This document shows positions 788 to 59,410 of a stretch of DNA of 64,000 nt, one piece after another (position 1 is the first letter of the stretch; each line of letters opens with the position of its first letter). The DNA is taken from positions 558,001 through 622,000 of the forward strand of contig NZ_CP101823.1 of the NCBI RefSeq assembly GCF_024498175.1, written 5' to 3'. Both the position numbers and the translations under genes were made by a program. The stretch is from Haloplanus salinarum. GTDB lineage: Archaea > Halobacteriota > Halobacteria > Halobacteriales > Haloferacaceae. A model generated the notes under the pieces. It ran no database searches and was not told the origin of the DNA. It saw only the letters and a list, made by a program, of their open reading frames with translations.

Positions 788-1561
788 ATGCCAACGGTAC
801 AGGAGATCAGGCAGGCGTCGGCGGACGAGGAACCGCTGACGATGCTGACGGCCTACGACGCGCCGACGGCCGAACTCGTCGACGCGGCCGGGATCGACAT
901 GATCCTGGTCGGCGACAGCATGGGCAACGCCGTGCTCGGGTACGACTCGACGCTCCCCGTGACGATGGACGACGTGGCGGGCCACACCGGCGCCGTGGTA
1001 CGGGCCACCGAGGACGCGCTCGTCGTCGCGGACATGCCGTTTCTGAGCTACGGCGCGACCGACGACGCGGGGATCGAGAACGCCGGACGACTCGTCAAGG
1101 AGGCGGGTGCGAACGCCGTCAAGATCGAGTCGGGCCCGCACACCGTCGAGTTGACCGAACGCCTCGTCCAACTGGGGATCCCGGTGATGGCCCACCTCGG
1201 GTTGACGCCCCAACGTCTCAACCAGGTCGGCGGCTACACCAGACAGGGGACCACCGAGGCCGACGCCCGGGAGATCAAGGACCTCGCGCGGCGCCACGAG
1301 GAGGCGGGCGCCTTCTCGCTGGTGCTCGAACACGTCCCCTCGGAGCTGGCTGCCGAGGTGACCGCCGACCTCGACGTCCCGGTGATCGGCATCGGGGCCG
1401 GGCCGGAGACGGACGGCCAGGTGCTCGTGTTGACCGACGTCATCGGCCTCTCGGCGTCGCCCCCGCCGTTCGCCGAATCCTTCGGCGACGTGCGTGGCGA
1501 GATAGCGGACGCGGTGGCGTCGTACCGCGAGGCCGTCGAGGACGGCGACTTTCCGGACTAG
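788..1561 (+). CDS. panB: 3-methyl-2-oxobutanoate hydroxymethyltransferase (ketopantoate hydroxymethyltransferase)
   Basis: Transfers a hydroxymethyl group from methylene-tetrahydrofolate (or an archaeal pterin) to ketoisovalerate, giving ketopantoate. The 257-residue TIM-barrel protein has the usual family length. It carries the Mg/substrate-binding segment VGDSMGNAVLGYDSTLPVT near residue 41 and the C-terminal IGIGAGPETDGQVLVLTD block. It lies just downstream of panE, so the two make pantoate from ketoisovalerate. Its TAG stop shares CTAG with the TAG of the convergent TrmB-type gene, a 4-nt tail-to-tail overlap. Confidence 0.96.
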   Translation: MPTVQEIRQASADEEPLTMLTAYDAPTAELVDAAGIDMILVGDSMGNAVLGYDSTLPVTMDDVAGHTGAVVRATEDALVVADMPFLSYGATDDAGIENAGRLVKEAGANAVKIESGPHTVELTERLVQLGIPVMAHLGLTPQRLNQVGGYTRQGTTEADAREIKDLARRHEEAGAFSLVLEHVPSELAAEVTADLDVPVIGIGAGPETDGQVLVLTDVIGLSASPPPFAESFGDVRGEIADAVASYREAVEDGDFPD

Positions 1562-2370
1562 TCGCCCCGGATCGCCGAGGCCAGGAGCGGGCGCATCATG
1601 CCGACCACGGGCGCTTCGGCGCTGTCGGTCCAGATAGCCCGGTGTTTGCGGACGCCGGGCAGGTCCGTCGTGGCGTCGGCGCTGACGAGGAGCGCGTTGC
1701 CGTCGACCATACAGACGCTCGTGACGGCGCCGGCGTCGATCGGGACGGCGTCCCACCACGTCCAGGTCTCGACCACCTCGGCGCCGTCGACGGCGTCGGT
1801 CAGTCGCTCCCGGATCGCCCCGTCGGGTGACCCGATCACCACCTCGACGTCCCGGTCGACGGCGTCGTCGAGCGCGTCGATCAGGTCGTCCCCGAGGAGG
1901 GCGTCGACGGCGACAGCCAGCAACACCTCGTCGTCGGCGTCGCCGACGAGCGTCGCGAGCCGCTCCGAGACGGCCGTCTCGCCTTCCATCGTCCAGACTT
2001 CGCCGGCGCTCGACGAGCGATCCGGCGATCCGAGGCGGGGCAGGACCGCCCCGAGGGTGTCGAGGCGGCTCCGACACTCCTGTTCCAGCAGTTCGACCGA
2101 CTCGCGCGGCGAAACCGCGCGGAACCGTCGCGGCTTCGACTCCTGGACGCTGACGAGACCCCGGTCCTGGAGGGTGTCCATGCTGTCGTAGATCCGCGCG
2201 CGCGGCACGTCAGCGACTTCGCTCACCTCCTTCGCCGTGCCCTCGCGCAGGCGCGCAAGCGCCACGAAACATTTCGCCTCGTACTCGGTGAGTTCGAACG
2301 TCCGGAGCGTCTCCACTGCCTCCTCGACGAGCGAGTCGATGCCGGCGTCCGAAGATGTGGTTTTGGTCAC
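1558..2370 (-). CDS. TrmB-family transcriptional regulator
   Basis: A 270-residue DNA-binding regulator. The winged helix-turn-helix spans about residues 15-75 (LTEYEAKCFVALARLREGT followed by ARIYDSMDTLQDRGLV), as in TrmB proteins. The C-terminal 150 residues resemble the TrmB effector-binding region, including the TWTWWDAVPID segment. I chose the GTG at 2370 (VTKTTSSDAG). The frame stays open to an ATG at 2481, but the added residues are not family-like and contain the probable promoter. The ligand is unknown. Haloarchaeal TrmB relatives often control sugar or central carbon metabolism. The stop overlaps that of convergent panB. Confidence 0.85.
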   Translation of the reverse strand: MTKTTSSDAGIDSLVEEAVETLRTFELTEYEAKCFVALARLREGTAKEVSEVADVPRARIYDSMDTLQDRGLVSVQESKPRRFRAVSPRESVELLEQECRSRLDTLGAVLPRLGSPDRSSSAGEVWTMEGETAVSERLATLVGDADDEVLLAVAVDALLGDDLIDALDDAVDRDVEVVIGSPDGAIRERLTDAVDGAEVVETWTWWDAVPIDAGAVTSVCMVDGNALLVSADATTDLPGVRKHRAIWTDSAEAPVVGMMRPLLASAIRGD

Positions 2371-2566
2371 GACGGGCGTCTCCTGTGTCGCTCCCGCGTT
2401 AGGATGACACCACCAAAAAGAGTCGGGTCCGACGGGCGCCGCTTGTGTACCGTCGGCACACTCTGTTTCTATTGGAATCAAAACACAGGAGAAACTATTA
2501 AGATACTACCAAACGTAGGGGTAGGTGAGAGGAGCGGACCGCGGCCACGTGCCGCCATCGACAATC
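2371..2566. promoter_or_regulatory. Divergent promoter region between the TrmB-type regulator and tfb
   Basis: A 196-bp gap, much more AT-rich than its surroundings between 2464 and 2512. The AAACTATTAAGATAC stretch near 2490-2506 is the best TATA candidate for tfb, leaving roughly a 35-nt leader. A run of A/T near 2411-2417 (CCAAAAAG) could serve the leftward gene. Confidence 0.45.
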
Positions 2567-3559
2567 ATGAGCCACCAGCCCCACTCCCTCCGAGAGGCCG
2601 GCGGGGAACAGCACGAGACGACCGACGTCGAGACCGAAGAACGCGTCGACGAGTTCGCCTGTCCGGAGTGTGACGCGGCGCTCGTCGCCGACGAGGCACA
2701 CGGCGAGACGGTGTGTGAGTCCTGCGGTCTCGTGGTCGAGGAAGACGAGATCGACCACGGGCCGGAGTGGCGTGCCTTCGACTCCAACGAGCGAGCGGAG
2801 AAGAGCCGTGTCGGCGCACCGACGACGAAACTCCTCCACGACGACGGTCTCTCCTCGGTCATCGACTGGCAGGACCGGGACGCGAAGGGGCGGACCATCG
2901 ACGGGAGTAAGCGTCGCAAGCTACAGCGACTCCGGACTTGGGACGAGCGGTTCCGTTCGAAGAGCGCCCAGGAGCGCAACCTGAAGCAGGCGCTCGGCGA
3001 GATCGACCGGATGTCGTCGGCGCTGGGGTTGCCCGAGAACGTCCGCGAGACCGCGAGCGTCGTCTACCGCCGCGCGCTCGAGGACGACCTGCTCCGCGGT
3101 CGCTCCATCGAGGCGATGGCGACGGCGTCGCTGTACGCCGCCGCCCGCCAGGCCTCGGTTCCGCGGAGTCTCGACGAGTTCGAACCCGTCAGCCGGGTCG
3201 AGCGCAAGGAGTTCTCTCGAGCCTACCGCTACATCGTCCGCGAACTCGGCCTCGCCATCGAACCCGCCAACCCCCTCGAATACCTCCCGCGCTTTGCCTC
3301 CGATCTCGACCTCGACGGCGAGACGAAGACGCGTGCACGTTCGCTCCTCGAGGAAGGCATGGAGAGCGGCGTCCACAGCGGCAAGAGCCCGGTCGGCCTC
3401 GCGGCGGCCGCGCTCTACGCCGCCTCCATCCTCGAAGGGGAGAAAGTGACCCAGAAGGAGGTGTGTTCGGTGAGCGACGTCTCGGAGGTGACGGTCCGCA
3501 ACCGGTACACCGAACTGCTGGAAGCCGGCACCGACCCCGATGCGGCCCGCGCCGCCTAG
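2567..3559 (+). CDS. tfb: Transcription initiation factor IIB
   Basis: Archaeal general transcription factor that bridges TBP-DNA and RNA polymerase. The 330-residue protein has an N-terminal zinc ribbon (CPEC and CESC pairs, about residues 29-52), a B-reader/linker region, and two cyclin-like repeats of about 85 residues. The second repeat ends in a helix-turn-helix for BRE recognition (VTQKEVCSVSDVSEVTVRNR). I chose the ATG of MSHQPHSLRE. An in-frame ATG 14 codons upstream is less family-like. Haloarchaea carry several TFB paralogues, so this may be one of many promoter-selective copies. The stop overlaps that of the convergent gene by CTAG. Confidence 0.96.
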   Translation: MSHQPHSLREAGGEQHETTDVETEERVDEFACPECDAALVADEAHGETVCESCGLVVEEDEIDHGPEWRAFDSNERAEKSRVGAPTTKLLHDDGLSSVIDWQDRDAKGRTIDGSKRRKLQRLRTWDERFRSKSAQERNLKQALGEIDRMSSALGLPENVRETASVVYRRALEDDLLRGRSIEAMATASLYAAARQASVPRSLDEFEPVSRVERKEFSRAYRYIVRELGLAIEPANPLEYLPRFASDLDLDGETKTRARSLLEEGMESGVHSGKSPVGLAAAALYAASILEGEKVTQKEVCSVSDVSEVTVRNRYTELLEAGTDPDAARAA

Positions 3560-4498: not shown

Positions 4499-6028
4499 TC
4501 ACTCCTCGCCGGTGCCGAACGCGTTGCTGAGGCGGTCCCGGAACGACCGCAGGTCCGCCAGTTCCGACCGGATCTCCTCGATGTCGTCCTCGACGTCCTC
4601 GACGGCGGACAGCCCCTCGTCCAGACGCTCCAGGCGCGACTCGATCCGGTCGAGGTCGTCCCCGACCGCCTCCAGTCGCTCGTCCGTCTCCGCAACGGCG
4701 TCGGCCGTCTCCGTCACGTCCTCACGGAGGGCGGCGCGGTCGTCGGCGGCCGCCGACAGCGACGCGTCGAGGTCGTCGACCCGGTCGTGCAATTCGGCCA
4801 GGTCCTCGCTCACGTCGCCGAGTACCTCCTCGGCGGTCCCGTTCTCGTCGAGGAAGTCGGCGAGCGCGTCGCGGTAGGCCAGCACGTCCTCCACCTGGGA
4901 CTGGAGCCGACTCACCCGGACGTCGACGCTCGTCGGCACCTCGCCCTCGAAGGCCTCGCGGAGGACCGCCATGTCGTCGTCGTCGACCGATCCCTCGCGA
5001 ATCTCCGCGGCGAGGGCCGACGCGACCGATCCGGGCGCTGCCGCGGGCCCAGTGTCGGCCGTCGCGTCCGTCCCGTCGTCGGCCGTCGCGTCCGTCCCGT
5101 CGTCGGCCGTCGCGTCCGTCCCGTCGTCGGCCGTCGCGTCCGCCCCGTCGTCGGCCGTTGCCGGTGTCGGCTGCTCCTCGGGCGTGTCGTCGTCGGGCGT
5201 CTCGTCCCCTGCCCGCGGATCGAGCGCCGCCGCGGCGTCGGCGGATCCCACCGCTTCCGGTTCGTCGTCGTCCGCCTCGTCCGGCGCCTCGGCATCCTCC
5301 GCCTCGCTCCCGTCCGTGCTTCCCGCGTCGACGGCGTCCACCGACTCGTCCCGGTCGCGCATGGCGGCGGAGAGGTCGTCGTCGGTCGAGCGGGGCGTGA
5401 GATCGTCGTCGGTCGAGCGGGGCGTGACCTCGTCGTCGGTCGAGCGGGGCGTGACCTCGTCGTCGGTCGAGCGGGGCGTGACCTCGTCGTCGAGGAGCGG
5501 CTCCGGCGTCGAATCGTCCGCCTCCTCGGTGTCCTCCGGGGCTGAGAGGTCGGTCGTTCCCTCCCCGGAGAGGGCGTCGCGGACGACCTGTGTCGTCTCG
5601 CGACCGAGGACGTCGTCGCTTCCCGCGTCGCCGTCCGCGTCCTCTTCGGCGTCGCCCGTGTCGACGTCCATCAGTTCGACCGTCGGTTCCTCGAGGAAGG
5701 CCTCCGCCTCGTCGGGGTCGTCGATGCGGATACCGTACACCGTGAGCACGGATTCACCGGGTTCGAGCGTTCGCTCGTAGGCGACCCGGTGGTCGCGGTA
5801 GGCCGTCCAGTTGTCGCTGTCGTAGTCCGGGTGGAAGCCGACGCCCTCCATCGCGAACGACTCGGGGATTCGGTCGACGAGTCGGATTCTGGTCGGGTCG
5901 TCGGCGAGCGATTCGATCTCGAAGGCAATGGCCGGAACTGGAAACCGATCGGCCTCGAAGTCCTTCCCCACGCGGACTTCCCCCGTCGACACGGACACCG
6001 GGGTCTCGGGGTCTGAGTCGTTCGCCAT
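4499..6028 (-). CDS. Acidic repeat and coiled-coil protein, function unknown
   Basis: A 509-residue very acidic protein that I do not recognise by function. An N-terminal beta-rich domain (about residues 1-125, starting MANDSDPETPVSVS) is followed by a low-complexity linker with two different tandem repeats: four 9-residue units of type DDEVTPRST and four or more 8-residue units of type TADDGTDA. The last 120 residues are heptad-rich (for example DDLDRIESRLERLDEGLSAV), a likely coiled coil. There is no signal peptide or membrane segment. The start is the ATG at 6028. The family resembles haloarchaeal proteins that pair a conserved N-terminal domain with a C-terminal coiled coil. A scaffold or oligomerising role is inference. 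Confidence 0.75.
   Translation of the reverse strand: MANDSDPETPVSVSTGEVRVGKDFEADRFPVPAIAFEIESLADDPTRIRLVDRIPESFAMEGVGFHPDYDSDNWTAYRDHRVAYERTLEPGESVLTVYGIRIDDPDEAEAFLEEPTVELMDVDTGDAEEDADGDAGSDDVLGRETTQVVRDALSGEGTTDLSAPEDTEEADDSTPEPLLDDEVTPRSTDDEVTPRSTDDEVTPRSTDDDLTPRSTDDDLSAAMRDRDESVDAVDAGSTDGSEAEDAEAPDEADDDEPEAVGSADAAAALDPRAGDETPDDDTPEEQPTPATADDGADATADDGTDATADDGTDATADDGTDATADTGPAAAPGSVASALAAEIREGSVDDDDMAVLREAFEGEVPTSVDVRVSRLQSQVEDVLAYRDALADFLDENGTAEEVLGDVSEDLAELHDRVDDLDASLSAAADDRAALREDVTETADAVAETDERLEAVGDDLDRIESRLERLDEGLSAVEDVEDDIEEIRSELADLRSFRDRLSNAFGTGEE
5054..5160. repeat. Tandem repeat, 24-bp unit, inside the acidic protein gene
   Basis: Four near-identical 24-bp units (from 5054, 5078, 5102 and 5126) plus a partial fifth encode the 8-residue repeat TADDGTDA on the minus strand. 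Units differ by single bases, consistent with slippage expansion in a linker. Confidence 0.9.
5373..5480. repeat. Tandem repeat, 27-bp unit, inside the acidic protein gene
   Basis: Four 27-bp units (5373, 5400, 5427 and 5454) encode the 9-residue repeat DDEVTPRST or DDDLTPRST on the minus strand. A trailing partial unit follows. The last two units are identical, indicating recent duplication. Confidence 0.9.
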
Positions 6029-6242: not shown

Positions 6243-7121
6243 ATGTACGACTCCATCCTGGTTCCGACCGACGGCAGTGCCGGTGCCGAGACGGCGGCCG
6301 AGCACGCTTTCTCGCTCGCCGCCGCCTTCGACGCCGAGGTGACCGTCCTCAGCGTCGTCGACGCGGGACCGGTCGGGGACGCGGTCGCCGACCGGCGGGA
6401 GGCACTGGAGCAGGCAGCCCAGGAGTCCGTCGAGGCGGTCGCGCGGAACGCCGACGACGAGCTGCCGGTCCGCACGGCGGTCAAGCGGGGCCGTCCGTAC
6501 GAGACGATCCGCGAGTACATCGACCACGCGGGAATCGACCTCGTCACGATGGGGACGCACGGTCGAACGGGGCTCGACCGCCTGTTGCTCGGGAGCGTCG
6601 CCGAGCGCGTCGTCCGGACGAGTCCGGTGCCGGTGCTCACGGCCCGTGCCGACGACGGTGATGCCGACGGCGCCGTCGCCGGCGTCGACTCGACGTACGA
6701 GTCGGTGTTGGTGCCGACCGACGGAAGCGAGGCGGCGACGGCGGCGGTCGAACACGCCCTCGCCGTCGCGGAACGGTACGACGCGACCGTTCACGTGCTC
6801 TCGGTGGTCGACATGGAGGCGCTGGCCGGCGCCTCGAGTGTCGGCATGAGCGTCCCCGACGTCGCTCAGGACTTGGAGGCGGAGCACGAAGCGGCCGCCG
6901 AAACGATCGCGGACCGGTGTGAGCGCCGGGGGATCGAGGTGGAGATACGGGTCGAACAGGGCACACCCCACCGAGCCATCGACCGGTACGTCGACGAGAG
7001 GGGCATCGATCTCGTGACGATGGGCACCCACGGGCGGACGGGACTCGACCGCCTGTTGCTCGGGAGCGTGACCGACCGCGTGATCCGAACGAGTTCGGTG
7101 CCGGTGCTCACGGTGCGATGA
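6243..7121 (+). CDS. Tandem-domain universal stress protein
   Basis: A 292-residue cytosolic protein of two UspA domains (about 1-139 and 152-292). Each starts with a YxSxLVPTDGS strand. Each ends with the ATP-binding loop MGTHGRTGLDRLLLGS followed by a VPVLT strand, so both halves should bind nucleotide. A single polypeptide can thus form the usual USP dimer. The ATP-binding motif DNA (near 6550 and 7020) is nearly identical in both halves, a sign of duplication or ongoing conversion. The stop at 7119-7121 lies 3 bp before a palindromic element. Confidence 0.93.
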   Translation: MYDSILVPTDGSAGAETAAEHAFSLAAAFDAEVTVLSVVDAGPVGDAVADRREALEQAAQESVEAVARNADDELPVRTAVKRGRPYETIREYIDHAGIDLVTMGTHGRTGLDRLLLGSVAERVVRTSPVPVLTARADDGDADGAVAGVDSTYESVLVPTDGSEAATAAVEHALAVAERYDATVHVLSVVDMEALAGASSVGMSVPDVAQDLEAEHEAAAETIADRCERRGIEVEIRVEQGTPHRAIDRYVDERGIDLVTMGTHGRTGLDRLLLGSVTDRVIRTSSVPVLTVR

Positions 7122-7124
7122 TCT

Positions 7125-7206
7125 ATAGTAGCGATTGAAAGTCATTACACAGCCGATCGCAGTACTGCGTACGGTCGGCTGTGCAAACAGTTTCAATCGC
7201 TACTAT
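7125..7206. repeat. Palindromic element, type A, copy 1
   Basis: An 82-bp element. Outer arms ATAGTAGCGATTGAAA (7125-7140) and its exact complement (7191-7206) pair over 16 bp, or 18 bp counting CT/AG outside. Inside are GTCATTA on the left and CAAACAG on the right. Then comes a 9-bp inner stem (CACAGCCGA with TCGGCTGTG) enclosing the palindrome CGCAGTACTGCG. It lies between convergent uspA and the metallo-beta-lactamase gene and provides the latter's stop codon. The interior is identical to copy 2 at 57560. No target duplication of 4 bp or more is visible. It could be a MITE-like mobile element, a bidirectional terminator, or both. Confidence 0.9.
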
Positions 7207-8047
7207 AGAGGTCGATCCGGTCGCCGATCTCGACGACGTCCAGCCGGTCCGGGTGGTCGAACCCCCGCGCGTGGTGGTGGAGGACCGTCGGATCGGCGGT
7301 GAGACGCTTCCACATGTCCCAGTGGCTCGGCACCAGTCGGTCGAGTTCGAGGTCGTTCGCCGCGCGGATCACGTCGTTCTCGTCGGCGTACCACTGCGTC
7401 CGTTTCGGCTCCCGTGTCTCCTTGTCGGGGAGCATCCCCACCGAACCGAACGCGAGGACGCCGAGGTCGAGGTCGAACCGGTCCGCGAGTTCGGGGAAAG
7501 AGTCGGCGGGACGGGTGTCGCCGCCGTGGAAGACCGTCCCCGCGTCGCTCTCGATCACGTAGCCGACGGGGTGCTCGGCGTCGGGGTCGTTCACCGGGAC
7601 GACGTGGACGGTGAACTCCCCGACCTCGAACCGGTCGCCCTCGGCGACGGTGACGAACTGGTCCGCGACGACGCCCCACTCCTCGGTCCAGGTCTCGCCC
7701 TCGACGACGGCCATGCTCGCGTCCGGCGCGTAGTAGTCGGCACCGGTCGCGGACAGGATCGGCGCTTGCGTCGGCCCGTGGACGTGATCGGAGTGCTCGT
7801 GCGTGGCGAGCACCGCGTCGGCCTCGACGACGTCCGTCGGATCGAAGGGGACGGGGATCATCCGCACCGTCCGTGGCGGGTCGCCGATGCCGAGGTACGG
7901 ATCGATGAAGAGGGTCGTCCCGTCCGCGCCCTTCAGGACGAACCCGTTACAGCCCAGATACCAGACCGCGACCGTGTCCGGATCGGCCTCGGCCACGGCG
8001 GCCGGCAGCCAGTCTCCCCAGTCGCTCTCGCCCAGTTCGTGTGCCAT
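7193..8047 (-). CDS. Metallo-beta-lactamase-fold hydrolase, UlaG-like
   Basis: A 284-residue cytosolic hydrolase. The zinc-binding signature THEHSDHVHG is near residue 82, with further ligands in HPVGYVIES and VFHGGDTR (about residues 160-178) and SHWDMW near residue 243. It matches the COG2220/UlaG lactonase-like branch; the substrate is unknown. The ATG at 8047 begins MAHELGESDW. Its last residues (YSSD) and TGA stop are encoded by palindromic element A, so the natural C-terminus has been replaced or trimmed. It is divergent from the protein kinase gene. Confidence 0.88.
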   Translation of the reverse strand: MAHELGESDWGDWLPAAVAEADPDTVAVWYLGCNGFVLKGADGTTLFIDPYLGIGDPPRTVRMIPVPFDPTDVVEADAVLATHEHSDHVHGPTQAPILSATGADYYAPDASMAVVEGETWTEEWGVVADQFVTVAEGDRFEVGEFTVHVVPVNDPDAEHPVGYVIESDAGTVFHGGDTRPADSFPELADRFDLDLGVLAFGSVGMLPDKETREPKRTQWYADENDVIRAANDLELDRLVPSHWDMWKRLTADPTVLHHHARGFDHPDRLDVVEIGDRIDLYSSD

Positions 8048-11564: not shown

Positions 11565-13202
11565 ATGTCCTCCCTCGCGGAAGCCCTCCGGTTCGTCACT
11601 CGTCGGATCGCTCGACTGCGTGGCCGGTCGCCACGGTCGCTCGGCGGCGGCGCACTCATCGCCCTGGCGGTGATCGCCGCCGTCGGCTGGTATTTCCGTC
11701 CGTGGCTGCACGGCATCGTCTACGCGATATACACGACGCCGATCCTCCCCGTCGCCCTGCTCGTCGCCGGCCTCGTGGTGTACGGCCTCCACCAGCGAAC
11801 GACCCTGGTCGGCCCACAGGTCGCGCTCGCCGTGTTCCTGCTCGTCCTCGTCGTCGGGAGCGGAGTCGCGGGGTTGCTGGCCGGCGAACGGCTCGGCAAA
11901 TCGACCCTCGAGTCGGCGACGACGGCCGACTCGCTCGCCGAGACCGACTCGGGGATGCCGCGTGTCGTCCCGAAAAGCGTCGCCGCGCGGTACGCCTCGA
12001 ACACGCTCAACTTCCCCCAGTACCGGATCACCGGAAGCGAAGTGACCGTCGACGACGGAACGCCCTACTGGTCGTACGCACTCGCGCCGGACGGGACGTA
12101 CAACCACTTCACCAAGCGACAGCACGGGACCGTCCTCATCGACATGACCGAGCAGAACGCCGAGGTGCGGACGATCACCGGCGACTTGGAGCGCGGCATC
12201 GGGCCGGCGTTTTACAACAACTACCGGTTCGAACTGCTCAAGCGCGGCCAGTATCTCGTCGACTACGGCGACCCGTTCATGGTCGTCAAAGATGGCGAGC
12301 AGTACATCGCGGTCCCGTACACGACGCCGACCTTCCACTGGGCGCCGCTCCCGTACACGACGCCGGAGTGGGGTGGGGTCGCGCTGATCGACGGCGACGG
12401 CAACGTCGAGGACCTCAGCCCCGAGGAGGCGCGTCGCCACCCGGCGCTCGAAGAGCAGAAGCTCTACCCGTTCGCCCTCGCCCGCAAAAAGGTCGCGACG
12501 ACGAAATACCGGCGCGGGATCGTCAACACGTTCACGAGCCACGAAGACGAAATCGAGGTGGCACCCGTTCCGGGCGCGGACAACGACCAACCGTTCTTGG
12601 TGTTCACCGAAGACGGGCCGGAGTACGTCGTCGCGGTCGAACCGTACGGCGAGGCCCAGGGGCTCAAGGAGATCTGGACCGTCGACAGCCGGACCGGCGA
12701 CTACGAGGTGTACACCCCCGACCAGTCGCTGTTCGGCGCCAGGAAGGCGACCGACTACGTTCGGCAGGCGGCACGGACGACCGACTGGAACCGGTTCACC
12801 CCCTCGGAGCCAGTCCCCGTCGTCGTGGACGGGCAACTCTACTGGCAGGTTCGTGTCGTTCCTGGCGATAGCAGTGGTATCGCGTACATCGCGTTCGTCC
12901 ACGCCCGGTCGAGCGACGTGCAGGAGGTCTCGACGACCCGCGAGGTCGTCGCGTTCCTCGACGGCGACGTCGGCGCCGCCGACGACGGCTCGACGGAGGG
13001 GCGCCGTCCCTCGCTGATCGTCCAGCGCGTCGCGCCGAACGGCACCGTCGTCGGGACGCTTGCGGTCTACGGCAACGAATCCGTCCGGGTCGTGCAAGGT
13101 ACTGCGACGGCGACGAACGGGACGGCGACGAACGGGACGGCGACGAACGGGACGGCGACGAACGGGACGGCGACGAACGGGACGGCGACCGCGGCGGCCT
13201 GA
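11565..13202 (+). CDS. Membrane protein with large extracellular domain and repeated N-glycosylation tail
   Basis: A 545-residue protein not recognised by function. Hydrophobic helices near residues 26-48, 54-74 and 83-103 are followed by an approximately 390-residue soluble domain, beta-rich and Tyr/Pro-rich, probably outside the cell. The C-terminus contains five tandem TNGTA units, each holding an N-G-T sequon, a likely target of archaeal AglB N-glycosylation. I chose the ATG at 11565 (MSSLAEALRF). The upstream open frame overlaps the start of the divergent protease gene. Its role may be envelope-related, but that is inference. Confidence 0.75.
   Translation: MSSLAEALRFVTRRIARLRGRSPRSLGGGALIALAVIAAVGWYFRPWLHGIVYAIYTTPILPVALLVAGLVVYGLHQRTTLVGPQVALAVFLLVLVVGSGVAGLLAGERLGKSTLESATTADSLAETDSGMPRVVPKSVAARYASNTLNFPQYRITGSEVTVDDGTPYWSYALAPDGTYNHFTKRQHGTVLIDMTEQNAEVRTITGDLERGIGPAFYNNYRFELLKRGQYLVDYGDPFMVVKDGEQYIAVPYTTPTFHWAPLPYTTPEWGGVALIDGDGNVEDLSPEEARRHPALEEQKLYPFALARKKVATTKYRRGIVNTFTSHEDEIEVAPVPGADNDQPFLVFTEDGPEYVVAVEPYGEAQGLKEIWTVDSRTGDYEVYTPDQSLFGARKATDYVRQAARTTDWNRFTPSEPVPVVVDGQLYWQVRVVPGDSSGIAYIAFVHARSSDVQEVSTTREVVAFLDGDVGAADDGSTEGRRPSLIVQRVAPNGTVVGTLAVYGNESVRVVQGTATATNGTATNGTATNGTATNGTATNGTATAAA
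13113..13187 (+). repeat. Tandem repeat of five identical 15-bp units
   Basis: Five perfect copies of a 15-bp unit (13113, 13128, 13143, 13158 and 13173) encode TNGTA, each with an N-glycosylation sequon. Perfect identity suggests recent expansion and likely copy-number variation between strains. Confidence 0.95.
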
Positions 13203-13248
13203 CGCTCGGTGCCGGGCCGCCGCGGGGTGTGGCCGTGACGACCCGGGG

Positions 13249-21851: not shown

Positions 21852-22784
21852 ATGCGCCCCGCGTCGCCCTCCGGCAGCCGAACGGTCCTCGTCTGTACCG
21901 TCGCCGGCCTCCTCCTCGTCGGGAGCGTCGGTCTCGCCGTCGCCGTCGACGAGCCGCGGGACGCGCCGGCCGACACGTCGCCGCCCGTGACCGTCTACGT
22001 CAGCGAGTCGCTCGATATCTCGTCGGTCCAGCTCACCGGCGGCGGAACGCTCGGCACCGGCGAGAAGACGTTCGTCGCCACCAGCGGGAACGGCGCGTTC
22101 TCCGTCTTCGCCGAGGACGCGAGTTTCGACGGCGTCGACCCCGGCTCGTACGACGCGGACGCCGACGGCGATGACCGGGCCGACCTGCTCGTCGTGCGCC
22201 CCCGGATCACCGACCTCGAGGTGCGCAACGAGCGCGGGGTCGACGTCGCCGGCGACACCGTCGACGCCGACGACTTCGAGGAGGTGCGGATCACGGCCGA
22301 GTACAACTTCGCCGAGGCCGACCGCCTCGACGTGACGGTAGAGAGCCCGGACGACGTGGACCTCGCCGGGAATCGGCGGATCACCGAGAGCGGCGGGACG
22401 GTCACCGTCGACACGAGCGGGGCCGTGCGGGGCACGTACCGCATCACCGTCGAGGGAAGCGACGTCGACGACGGCTCCCGGACGGTCGAGGTGACCGTCG
22501 GCGGGGGTCGCACGGCCACCGCGACGCCCACGGCGACCGCCACGTCGACGCCCGAACCGACGCCGACGCCCACGGCGACCGCCACGTCGACGCCCGAACC
22601 GACGCCGACGCCCACGGCGACTGCCACGTCGACGCCCGAACCGACGCCGACGCCCACGGCCACCGACGCGCCGACCGCGACCCGCACGCCGACCGCCACC
22701 GAGTCGTCCGGTGACGGCTTCGCTCCCGTCGGCGCCGTCGTCGCCCTCCTGACGGTCGCGGGCGTCGCTCGGCGGCGCGAATAG
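21852..22784 (+). CDS. Secreted cell-surface protein with Thr/Pro stalk and PGF-CTERM-like anchor
   Basis: A 310-residue protein. Residues 10-35 are a Sec signal peptide (TVLVCTVAGLLLVGSVGLAV). A beta-sandwich-like region of about 190 residues follows. A stalk of about 50 residues comes from three 14-residue repeats rich in TPT and TPEPT. The C-terminus is GDGFAPVGAVVALLTVAGVA plus RRRE, resembling the PGF-CTERM sorting signal processed by archaeosortase, although the usual PGF is here DGF. S-layer-like surface location is inferred. A CCATTACG box 28 nt before the ATG supports the start. Confidence 0.8.
   Translation: MRPASPSGSRTVLVCTVAGLLLVGSVGLAVAVDEPRDAPADTSPPVTVYVSESLDISSVQLTGGGTLGTGEKTFVATSGNGAFSVFAEDASFDGVDPGSYDADADGDDRADLLVVRPRITDLEVRNERGVDVAGDTVDADDFEEVRITAEYNFAEADRLDVTVESPDDVDLAGNRRITESGGTVTVDTSGAVRGTYRITVEGSDVDDGSRTVEVTVGGGRTATATPTATATSTPEPTPTPTATATSTPEPTPTPTATATSTPEPTPTPTATDAPTATRTPTATESSGDGFAPVGAVVALLTVAGVARRRE
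22524..22649 (+). repeat. Tandem repeat, three 42-bp units, in a surface-protein stalk
   Basis: Three nearly identical 42-bp units (22524, 22566 and 22608) encode a 14-residue Thr/Pro-rich repeat, a likely O-glycosylated stalk. A partial fourth unit follows. Confidence 0.9.
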
Positions 22785-56660: not shown

Positions 56661-56722
56661 TCTCGCGGTCTATCGCTAGTCCGTGATGGCGACAATTAAA
56701 CCCCCCTGTCGATGGGGCGGGG

Positions 56723-56742
56723 CGGAGGGTTTTGGCCCTCCG
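56723..56742. promoter_or_regulatory. Inverted repeat flanking the TATA-like box of btpA
   Basis: CGGAGGG and CCCTCCG are perfect 7-bp inverted arms around TTTTGG, whose AT-rich centre is about 28 nt before the btpA ATG. This layout would let a dimeric regulator block TBP access. Confidence 0.35.
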
Positions 56743-56760
56743 GGCACGCACTCGTCAGTG

Positions 56761-57573
56761 ATGACCGACCTCCCACGCATCGTCGGCATGGTCCACCTAC
56801 CACCCCTCCCGGGGTCGCCCGGGTTCGACGGCGACCGCGCGGCGACCCGCGACCGCGTGCGCGCCGACGCGCGAGCGCTCGCCGAGGGCGGCGTCGACGC
56901 CCTCCTCGTCGAGAACTTCGGGGACGCCCCATTCTATCCGGAGACCGTCCCCCGGCACGTCGTCGCGTCGATGACCGATCTGACCCGACTCGTCGTCCGG
57001 ACGGTCGACCGCCCGGTCGGGGTGAACGTCCTCCGCAACGACGCGACGGCGGCGCTGTCGGCCGCGGCCGCCGCCGGCGCCGACTTCGTCCGCGTCAACG
57101 TCCACACCGGTGCGCGCGTCGCCGACCAGGGCGTGATCGAGGGGCGGGCCCACGAGACGCTCCGCCTGCGCGACCGCCTCGATACCGACGTGTCGATCCT
57201 CGCGGACACGGCGGTGAAACACTCGGCGCCACTGGGCGGGACGACGGCCGCCGACGGGCGGACCACCACGGGTGACGACGTCGACGACCTGGTCGAGCGC
57301 GGGCGTGCGGACGGCGTGATCGCGAGCGGTCCCCGGACGGGCGAGGGCGTCGACCGCGCCCGCCTCGAAGCGGTCGCCGAGCGGTGTGGCGCCCACGACG
57401 TCCCGCTGTACGTCGGGAGCGGCGTCACCGCGGGGACGGTCGGCGACCTCCTCGACGTCGCCGACGGGGTGATCGTCGGGACGGCGCTGAAACGGGACGG
57501 CGAGACGACCGCCCCGGTCGATCCGTCGCGGGTCCGGGCCCTCGTCGAGGCGGCCGACTGTAGTAGCGATTGA
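56761..57573 (+). CDS. BtpA-family protein
   Basis: A 270-residue TIM-barrel protein of the BtpA/SgcQ family: GMVHLPPLPGSPGF at the N-terminus, VDALLVENFGDAPFY, VGVNVLRNDATAALSAAAAA, ADFVRVNVHTGARV and YVGSGVTAGTVGDLLDVADG. In cyanobacteria BtpA helps photosystem I accumulation; in archaea the role is unknown, possibly a phosphosugar or nucleobase enzyme. The last residues CSSD and the TGA stop are encoded by palindromic element A copy 2, so the natural C-terminus is altered. Confidence 0.88.
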   Translation: MTDLPRIVGMVHLPPLPGSPGFDGDRAATRDRVRADARALAEGGVDALLVENFGDAPFYPETVPRHVVASMTDLTRLVVRTVDRPVGVNVLRNDATAALSAAAAAGADFVRVNVHTGARVADQGVIEGRAHETLRLRDRLDTDVSILADTAVKHSAPLGGTTAADGRTTTGDDVDDLVERGRADGVIASGPRTGEGVDRARLEAVAERCGAHDVPLYVGSGVTAGTVGDLLDVADGVIVGTALKRDGETTAPVDPSRVRALVEAADCSSD

Positions 57574-57641
57574 AAGTCATTACACAGCCGATCGCAGTAC
57601 TGCGTACGGTCGGCTGTGCAAACAGTTTCAATCGCTACTAT
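57560..57641. repeat. Palindromic element, type A, copy 2
   Basis: An 82-bp element identical to copy 1 at 7125 except for its first base (G instead of A), so the outer stem pairs at 15 of 16 positions. It carries the same GTCATTA/CAAACAG internal loop and inner stem. It lies between convergent btpA and the NDH-type gene, and both genes read into it and stop at the TGA inside its arms (57571-57573 plus strand, 57628-57630 minus strand). No obvious target duplication. Confidence 0.92.
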
Positions 57642-58776
57642 AGGCGAGCTCTTCCCGGGCGAGTTCCGCGGCCCGGGTGACCGCGCCGATCGAAGAGAGG
57701 TGGCCGGCGCCGACGGTGGCCTTCATCGCCCGCGCGGCGGCGCCGCGGAACACCTTCGGCCCGACCGTGGCGACGGCGTCGTCGCCGACGGAGGCGATCC
57801 AGCCGGGGGCGTCGAACCGGAACGGCTCCAGTCGAGGGTCGAAGCCGTCGTCGCGGGGGTCGCCGAGGCCGAGGTCGGCACGGACCAGGCGGTCGAGGTT
57901 GGTGGCGACCGTCTCCGCCTCGCGGATGGCCGCCGCGGCGCTCGCGGGGACGGCCTCGCCGTCGGCGTCGACGACCTTCGCGGCGTCGCCGACGGCGAAG
58001 GCGTGGGAATCGAGTCTGAGGTCGCCGCGCACGACCGGGCGGTCGCCGCCGAGCGCCGCCGGGCCGCGGATGCCCCCGGTCCAGACGAACGTGTCGTAGG
58101 GGACGCTCCGACCGTCCACTTCCACCGCGTCGGCGCTCGCTTCGGTCACCCGGGCGCCGGTCTCGACGGCCACGCCCGCGTCGTCGAGGGCGTCGCGGAC
58201 GGCCGACCGAAACGCCTCCGGGAAGGCCGGCGCCACCGAGTCCAGCCGTTCGAGGACGGTCACCTCGACGGCGGCGTCGCGTTCGTCGGCGAGCGCCGCG
58301 AGTTCGCCCGCCACCTGCACGCCCGAGAGGCCGGCGCCGCCGACGACCGCCCGCCCCCCGGCGTCGCAGGTGTCGAGGAAGTCCTCGCGGAGGCGACGGG
58401 CGTGTGCCAGCCGCTTCAGCGGGAGCCCGTGCTCGTGGACGCCGGGGAGGTCGTAGAAGGCCGTCTCGGCGCCGAGACAGACCGCCGCGTAGTCGTAGTC
58501 GAGGGCGCCGTCGTCCAGGTGGACGCGGCGCGCCTCCCGGTCGACGCGCTCGACGCTCGCGGTGCGAACCGTCGCCCGCGAGAGGGCGTCGTCGAGGGGG
58601 ACGGTGATGGCGTCGGCCACCGACGGACGGCGGACGACCCGGTGGAGTTCGTGCTGGACGAGGTGGGTGTCGGACTCGTCGACGACGACGAGGTCGACCG
58701 CCTCGGGGAGTCGGGATTCGAGGCGACGGGCGAGTGTCAGGCCGGCGTAACCGGCACCGAGGACGACGACGCGCAT
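57628..58776 (-). CDS. NADH dehydrogenase type II-like FAD oxidoreductase
   Basis: A 382-residue flavoprotein with FAD-binding VVLGAGYAGLTLARRLE at the N-terminus, the NAD-binding AVVGGAGLSGVQVAGELAAL (about 147-166) and the second FAD contact SHAFAVGDAAKV. It resembles NDH-2/Ndh-type enzymes that pass electrons from NADH to quinone without proton pumping. No membrane helix is visible, as usual. The C-terminal YSSD and stop come from palindromic element A. The ATG at 58776 is clear. Confidence 0.88.
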   Translation of the reverse strand: MRVVVLGAGYAGLTLARRLESRLPEAVDLVVVDESDTHLVQHELHRVVRRPSVADAITVPLDDALSRATVRTASVERVDREARRVHLDDGALDYDYAAVCLGAETAFYDLPGVHEHGLPLKRLAHARRLREDFLDTCDAGGRAVVGGAGLSGVQVAGELAALADERDAAVEVTVLERLDSVAPAFPEAFRSAVRDALDDAGVAVETGARVTEASADAVEVDGRSVPYDTFVWTGGIRGPAALGGDRPVVRGDLRLDSHAFAVGDAAKVVDADGEAVPASAAAAIREAETVATNLDRLVRADLGLGDPRDDGFDPRLEPFRFDAPGWIASVGDDAVATVGPKVFRGAAARAMKATVGAGHLSSIGAVTRAAELAREELAYSSD

Positions 58777-58814
58777 ACCTCCCCGTTGACCCACACGGCA
58801 AAGAAGGGTCGCCC

Positions 58815-58827
58815 GGGGGGGGGGGGG
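58815..58827 (+). repeat. Run of 13 G residues
   Basis: A 13-bp homopolymer in the 103-bp gap between the divergent NDH-type gene and the next gene, about 20 bp upstream of the latter's TATA-like box. It is prone to slippage or assembly error. Confidence 0.9.
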
Positions 58828-58847
58828 TGGCGGCTTTCGGCCGTCCC

Positions 58848-58853
58848 ATATAA
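58848..58853 (+). promoter_or_regulatory. TATA box of the gene at 58880
   Basis: ATATAA lies 27-32 nt before the ATG at 58880, a strong match for a leaderless haloarchaeal promoter. Confidence 0.6.
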
Positions 58854-58879
58854 GTGCGAGCGCGCCGACGCCCGAACGG

Positions 58880-59410
58880 ATGGGCGTCGAAGGGTTCGTC
58901 TGTTGGACGGCACACTCGATCAACGACCGGACCGAGCTGCGGCGCGTCCTGAACGCACAACTGCCCGCGGGGACGCGTGCGCTCCGGGAGGCTCGCGAGG
59001 CGGGACTGCTCGACGGCACGAGTCTGCGTCCGCGGGGACTCGCCGCCGCCCACGAGTTCGCGGCGCGGAGCGACCTGCCGATGGCCGGCCCGAGCGACGC
59101 CGTCGCGGACTTCAGCGCGCTCCTCGATGGGATTCGGGCCGCCGCCGACGCGGGCCGCCCGCTCACCGTCGAGGCCGTCCCCGACGGGTTCGACCGGGTC
59201 GACCCCACGGTCGATCGGTTCGACCGGGCGTATCACACGGTCAACGTCGCCAAGGAGTACCCCGGGGGCGCGGAAGTGGAGTTGAATTACCGCTCGCGCG
59301 ACCCGAGTCAGCCGGGCGAGGCCAAACCCAACCGGTCGACGGCGATCCTGTGGCTCCGCGGTGACGTGGACCACGAGTACGACCACCGGCGCGAGTGGGT
59401 CGAAGGTTAG
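58880..59410 (+). CDS. Conserved hypothetical protein
   Basis: A 176-residue soluble protein I do not recognise. It has a mixed alpha/beta character. Features are MGVEGFVCWTAHSIND at the start, a helical middle (AAHEFAARSDLPMAGPSDAV) and a Tyr/Arg-rich end (YHTVNVAKEYPGGAEVELNY, DHEYDHRREWVEG). The strong TATA box supports the ATG at 58880. The stop overlaps the convergent mevalonate-pathway gene by TTAG. Confidence 0.7.
   Translation: MGVEGFVCWTAHSINDRTELRRVLNAQLPAGTRALREAREAGLLDGTSLRPRGLAAAHEFAARSDLPMAGPSDAVADFSALLDGIRAAADAGRPLTVEAVPDGFDRVDPTVDRFDRAYHTVNVAKEYPGGAEVELNYRSRDPSQPGEAKPNRSTAILWLRGDVDHEYDHRREWVEG

Follow-up and report, generated by a model that had tools for sequence, protein, structure and literature searches.

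In the stretch of DNA analysed here (64,000 nucleotides of Haloplanus salinarum, positions 558,001 to 622,000 of contig NZ_CP101823.1; hereafter the window), three unrelated proteins end in the same residues, SSD, and each of their genes runs into a copy of one palindrome, element A. The locus raises the question of whether these ends belong to the proteins or to the palindrome, and of how the frame comes to be the right one each time. The relevant features, with gene calls obtained by a simple codon model and not from annotation, are:

1558..1561, no strand: unoccupied target; one CTAG contains the stop (TAG) of ORF 788-1561 (plus) and that of ORF 1558-2481 (minus).
6243..7121, plus strand: universal stress protein (Usp) gene; its own TGA lies just before copy 1; unaltered.
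7123..7208, no strand: copy 1 of element A; intact target C-TA-[80 nt]-TA-G.
7193..8047, minus strand: metallo-hydrolase (Lactamase_B_2); ends DRIDL-YSSD*; native end DRIDL-TAG.
56683..57573, plus strand: btpA-family gene; last codons TGT AGT AGC GAT and TGA from the left arm of copy 2; ends CSSD*; probable native TAG right after GCC GAC.
57558..57643, no strand: copy 2 of element A plus the flanks that stem from CTAG, C-TG(TA)-[80-nt MITE]-TA-G; one TA, the first, mutated to TG.
57561..57640, no strand: the 80 nt proper, a very probable MITE, TAGTAGCGATTGAAA...TTTCAATCGCTACTA, TA duplications excluded; defined by 118 aligned copies and empty sites.
57628..59208, minus strand: NDH-type (Pyr_redox_2) gene; YSSD-TGA from the right arm; probable native end ...EELA-TAG, at the same CTAG as btpA.

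A preliminary description of this DNA had placed the second copy at 57560-57641, which is nearly exact: copy 2 occupies 57558-57643, with the outer sequence CTRTAGTAGCGATTGA...TCAATCGCTACTATAG, and is 99% identical to copy 1 at 7123-7208. Both arms read AGT AGC GAT TGA inward, as described, in the frame TAT/TGT AGT AGC GAT TGA. The Pfam assignments of the three genes were confirmed (BtpA PF03437, Pyr_redox_2 PF07992 for the NDH-type gene and Lactamase_B_2 PF12706 for the metallo-hydrolase). The btpA gene and the NDH-type gene do run into copy 2 from opposite strands, ending in CSSD* and YSSD*, respectively, and the hydrolase at 7193 does end in YSSD-stop inside copy 1, where the element's stop is used by this neighbour only, the Usp gene on the plus strand keeping its own TGA.

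The claim that the palindrome donates these tails called for a comparison with orthologues, which was carried out in 11 other genomes of the same genus. Every btpA, ndh and hydrolase orthologue recovered lacked the SSD tail. All 11 hydrolase orthologues end in ...DR[IVL]DL*, exactly where YSSD begins in the window protein. The nearest orthologues of the other two genes, both in genome G010, end in ...AAAD-TAG for btpA (codons GCG GAT TAG) and in ...EELS-TAA for ndh, and, where an alignment is possible, the C-terminus of the nearest orthologue falls exactly at the start of the tail. Since the orthologues carry no tail and end where it starts, (Y/C)SSD-stop is encoded by element A, which extends each protein by four residues. 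The tail as a native C-terminus is ruled out by these orthologues, and so is an insertion that truncates, because the full length of each protein is retained and four residues are added. The palindrome as donor of a tail common to three unrelated proteins, in both directions, is thereby upheld. When the element at 57558 was removed in silico and one TA kept, the sequence became GCC GAC TAG GCG AGC TC. As judged from the alignment, btpA and ndh would thus have ended in one common CTAG, read as TAG by btpA and as the complementary CTA by ndh. The window still holds such an arrangement at 1558-1561, and the matching junction is occupied by a copy of the element in genome G001 (locus L178).

Element A itself is a non-coding sequence of 80 nt with terminal inverted repeats, its arms being complementary almost from end to end, and, with the duplicated dinucleotide included, its layout is C-TA-[TAGTAGCGATTGAAAGTCATTACACAGCCGATCGCAGTACTGCGTACGGTCGGCTGTGCAAACAGTTTCAATCGCTACTA]-TA-G. 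Folded as RNA, the hairpin reaches -48 kcal/mol (z -9.8). There is no long run of T in the element, and its flanks are GC-rich gene sequence. Rfam recognised a single tRNA in the window and nothing else. The window's genome (G000) has about 18 copies, of which ten are nearly identical, and relatives occur in nine of the 11 further members of the genus and in some more distant genomes. The exact pattern TAGTAGCGATTGAAAGTCAT had no match in the genome contigs searched, while a looser pattern recovered related elements in Natrinema, Natrialba, Natronosalvus, Halostagnicola, Haloferax mucosum and Halogeometricum limi, which makes the family a widespread one in Natrialbaceae, Haloferax and Halogeometricum. 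In the aligned set of 118 copies the unit almost always measures 84 nt with both TAs, TA flanks nearly all copies on both sides, C precedes TA in 101 copies and G follows TA in 93. Empty sites carry a single dinucleotide: in occupied/empty pairs from G004 and G000, only two nucleotides stand where the occupied site has the 84-nt stretch. The boundaries of the element and its TA/CTAG target can thus be read directly from these sites. Five insertion sites are common to different species, which indicates vertical inheritance of the older copies. Across the 118 copies, the inner arms of the stem covary between subfamilies (CACAGCCGATCG, CACACCTGATCG, CACATCGGATCG), so that the hairpin is kept while its sequence drifts.

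These properties leave practically no probability to a non-mobile intergenic repeat, REP-like or of the rho-independent-terminator type, which would have been born in place and whose common tails would be convergent. The hairpin shape and the location between convergent genes would suit such a repeat, but its copies would not be expected to be dispersed, near-identical, constant in length and flanked by a TA duplication, and the two-base empty sites found at orthologous positions already refute it. Several named classes can also be set aside. REP/RAYT sequences are single hairpins linked to a Y1 transposase and have no target duplication; element A duplicates TA, and its ends match those of IS630, a DDE element. 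Terminators of the rho-independent type have a T-run after the hairpin, which is missing here. SMRs show no target duplication and have ITRs unrelated to transposons, neither of which applies to element A. PATEs, for which as for the SMRs the definition of PMC3119063 was used, have near-terminal palindromes and neither terminal inverted repeats nor a target duplication; element A has both, and a PATE or IS200-type origin is ruled out by the TA duplication and the IS630-like ends.

Taken as a whole, the evidence is best explained if element A is a non-autonomous MITE of the IS630/Tc1 type, an 80-nt near-perfect hairpin with CTAG as its preferred target, and we consider this identification very probable. 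It has what is found in MITEs, namely dispersed near-identical copies, a target duplication, empty sites and ends related to those of an autonomous transposon, and the duplicated dinucleotide is TA, as in IS630/Tc1-mariner elements. The related transposons are haloarchaeal two-ORF elements of the IS630 group of about 1055 bp, with TAGTAACCGTTAGAACTTTTTGC as left end and TAGTAGGCACTAGAAGTAATTAC as right end, a TA duplication and C..G flanks; among 33 copies, C stands before TA in 31 and C/G on both sides in 23. The right arm of the MITE is similar to the left end of the IS and the left arm to its right end, each at up to 19 of 26 positions, and this pairing beats the swapped one in most loci; the two arms, in their conserved asymmetry, can accordingly be traced to the two different ends of a parent IS. 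An in-phase TAG is found at offset 12 in 65 of the 66 ends of these 33 copies, which read TAT AGT ANN NNN TAG nearly everywhere. A stop in the same frame at 65 of 66 ends makes the in-phase stop look ancestral, older than the MITE. A point against the overall explanation is that few of the IS copies themselves lie at stops, with 2 of 66 ends in such a position.

We infer that element A is mobilised by the transposase of these two-ORF IS630-group elements. In the sequence sampled from genome G004, five near-identical copies of the candidate parent IS are accompanied by at least 23 near-identical MITEs of type B (described below). PF13358 (DDE_3) gave no match in G000, and a search of this genome with the first ORF of the candidate IS gave one distant match only; with these results no resident transposase can be assigned to its ten near-identical copies. 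The proposed course of events is that a transposase acting in trans would insert the element into a TA, preferably within 5'-CTAG, and duplicate the TA. Where the CTAG is a stop, the old stop would be displaced and each gene would gain YSSD and a new TGA with its own sequence intact. The in-phase stop would have been inherited from the parent IS, kept by MITE subfamily A and lost by subfamily B. Several other IS630-group ISs of G004 (loci L153-L167) show apparent 3-bp TNA duplications (TGA/TCA/TAA) instead of the TA typical of the family; those with TNA-type duplications and the ends TAGTGATTAAGG or TACGGTCG were rejected as parent, both duplication and ends being wrong.

The same target accounts for the frame. 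Of 74 gene ends that run into copies, 61 do so in one phase, phase 0 (p = 5e-18 against one third), and with about 18 copies in the genome the SSD tails are not due to chance. If the element enters NNC-TA|G behind the A and TA is duplicated, NNC-TAG becomes NNC-TAT-AGT-AGC-GAT-TGA. The fixed phase thus follows from the CTAG target, the insertion point lying inside the native NNC-TAG stop, between its TA and its G, and every element at a TAG stop of the CTAG type gives four added residues and an in-phase stop, from both sides. The preliminary description had the donation of tails in both directions right, and neither the identity as a mobile IS630-type MITE nor a phase fixed by the target formed part of it.

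The number of suitable sites was estimated from sampled stretches of G000 totalling 464 kb. They contain 130 CTAG, where 1417 are expected from base composition, an approximately 11-fold depletion; 89 lie outside coding sequence, and about a quarter of these (21) are TAG stops, nine of them double. The census of G004 was similar. CTAG sites that serve as double stop of convergent genes, such as those at 1558-1561 and 3556-3559 of the window, make up 9 of the 130 remaining sites and occur at about 11% of the convergent pairs in the 464 kb of G000. In the Natrialbaceae sample, none of 280 CTAG sites was a double stop common to convergent genes.

Whether the in-frame stop has any bearing on where copies are found can be judged from two subfamilies within the genus: subfamily A has an in-phase TGA in an arm, and subfamily B has no early stop (e.g. 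TTTGTAA). Of 49 copies of A, 36 are located at a native stop, compared with 1 of 57 for B (p = 3e-16), and 22 of the 49 are at the stops of both genes of a convergent pair, above the prediction of the CTAG census. Relative to this census, A is enriched at stops (p = 2e-13) and B is depleted (p = 6e-6). The contrast persists when four orthologous duplicates are removed, and in genomes holding both subfamilies (36/49 versus 1/29) it was reached by none of 200,000 stratified permutations. Among young copies only, 12 of 20 A and 0 of 36 B are at stops, and the share at stops is higher among older A copies than among the younger (p = 0.03), which retention of these copies would predict. These results show that the in-frame stop does have such a bearing. 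In Natrialbaceae there was a weak trend in the same direction, 7 of 41 elements with an in-phase stop being at stops versus 1 of 36 (p = 0.06), but the 7/41 does not exceed the rate among local CTAG sites (p = 0.11); the strong association therefore applies to the window's genus only.

As for the cause of the A/B split, we infer that it most likely lies in selection on where insertions can persist: copies at stops would be harmless and would then be retained, the genes having come to rely on the TGA of the element. Target-site choice alone, with an A-era transposase preferring convergent double-stop contexts, that of B another, and no selection involved, would be a rival on this one point. Young A copies already show the pattern, and the bursts of B, for instance the one in G004, arose in another genome, perhaps with another transposase. 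We nevertheless consider it rather unlikely, since both subfamilies use CTAG with TA duplication, the contrast stays within genomes that hold both, and it would be a coincidence that the stop-bearing subfamily is the one at stops. We put forward, tentatively, a further reading, namely that the element lineage evolved, or kept under selection, a CTAG-matched in-frame stop at both ends, which would let it occupy the common stop of convergent genes harmlessly, as a 'self-healing' insertion for two genes at once, a niche from which the sister that lost the stop would be excluded; this is possible, though short of an even chance. Two sister MITEs with the same target, differing in the in-frame stop and distributed 36/49 versus 1/57, provide an unusually clean natural experiment on the niche of a transposon.

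The name of two-way translational stop cassette, given to the element in the preliminary description, stands as a mechanical description; as for a function for the host, a harmless insertion is the simpler reading. The stop of transcription in both directions that was suggested there for the hairpin may occur: the fold is very stable, but a long T-run is missing. A domesticated stop or terminator cassette, kept by the host since its hairpin and two-way stops would make translation and transcription end better and would block read-through, could account for the concentration of in-phase-stop copies at gene ends, with 22/49 at both convergent genes, for the copies found at the same site in different species and for the stable hairpin. 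It appears improbable, given that about nine in ten convergent pairs in the G000 sample do without even a CTAG double stop, that the orthologous junctions work without the element, that element A has no long T-run and that insertion at TAG followed by retention yields the same pattern without any benefit.

Among known systems, the RUP of Streptococcus pneumoniae, 107 bp and related to IS630-Spn1, is likewise short, non-coding and intergenic, with IS630-like TIRs and insertion at TA (PMC2229807), and is over-represented between convergent genes (PMC3049150). Element A shares with this IS630/Tc1-mariner MITE its shortness, lack of coding sequence, IS630-like ends, TA insertion and intergenic location; it differs in targeting CTAG, in forming a nearly complete hairpin and in replacing native TAG stops in a fixed frame both ways. 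BOX repeats of S. pneumoniae encode the stop codon of 36 annotated genes with no evident truncation (PMC3049150). Both BOX and element A supply stops, but BOX belongs to a different family of variable structure, and the available part of that report describes neither a frame imposed by the target nor paired convergent stops. In haloarchaea, the SMRs and MITEs of Haloquadratum walsbyi measure 80-110 bp, have prominent inverted repeats and no transposase, and for the MITEs the same puzzle over the source of transposition was reported; the SMRs neither duplicate their target nor have a relative among transposons, and those of the common type, SMR-A, insert into other mobile elements (PMC3119063). 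Element A, unlike the SMRs, duplicates TA and matches IS630 ends. A preference of IS630 for the TA in CTAG is the finding given in the title of Tenzen and Ohtsubo 1991, as cited in PMC2170065. IS630 (Shigella) and ISY100 (Synechocystis) duplicate TA as element A does, but they are autonomous insertion sequences. Certain integrative elements insert into tRNA or tmRNA genes and use their own DNA to restore the 3' end of the gene. The restoration of a gene end is alike, but the enzyme class is different, and element A restores a protein stop codon, that of two genes at once. In the open-access literature, most subscription journals lying outside it, we found neither a published haloarchaeal IS630 MITE nor a MITE defined by stop-codon targeting. 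Stop-supplying MITEs as such are already known from BOX; what may be new, relative to the literature searched, is the target-matched frame that would restore two convergent stops, with the stop-less sister excluded.

For annotation, the rewriting of gene ends by a mobile element explains why unrelated haloarchaeal proteins have the same (Y/C/D)SSD tail, and such tails are a trap both for gene annotation and for the search for C-terminal motifs.

Some minor observations were made in addition. At L047/L010 (G000:C1 1583845-1584013), a copy of element A is split by another hairpin, TACTGTTTATTGTAAGTCATTACCGGTGG...CCACCGGCAACCAGTTACAATAATCCGTA, which measures about 80 nt and has TGA repeats at its flanks. 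Its inner motifs GTCATTAC and GCAAnCAGTT are as in element A and its ends are different; the duplication is of the TNA type, which other IS630-group ISs of G004 also show. A nested copy resembling this one is also present in G008 (L059). The window further contains GC-rich tandem repeats, in frame by appearance, with units of 24, 27, 15 and 42 nt at 5032-5161, 5349-5510, 13091-13204 and 22480-22689, respectively.
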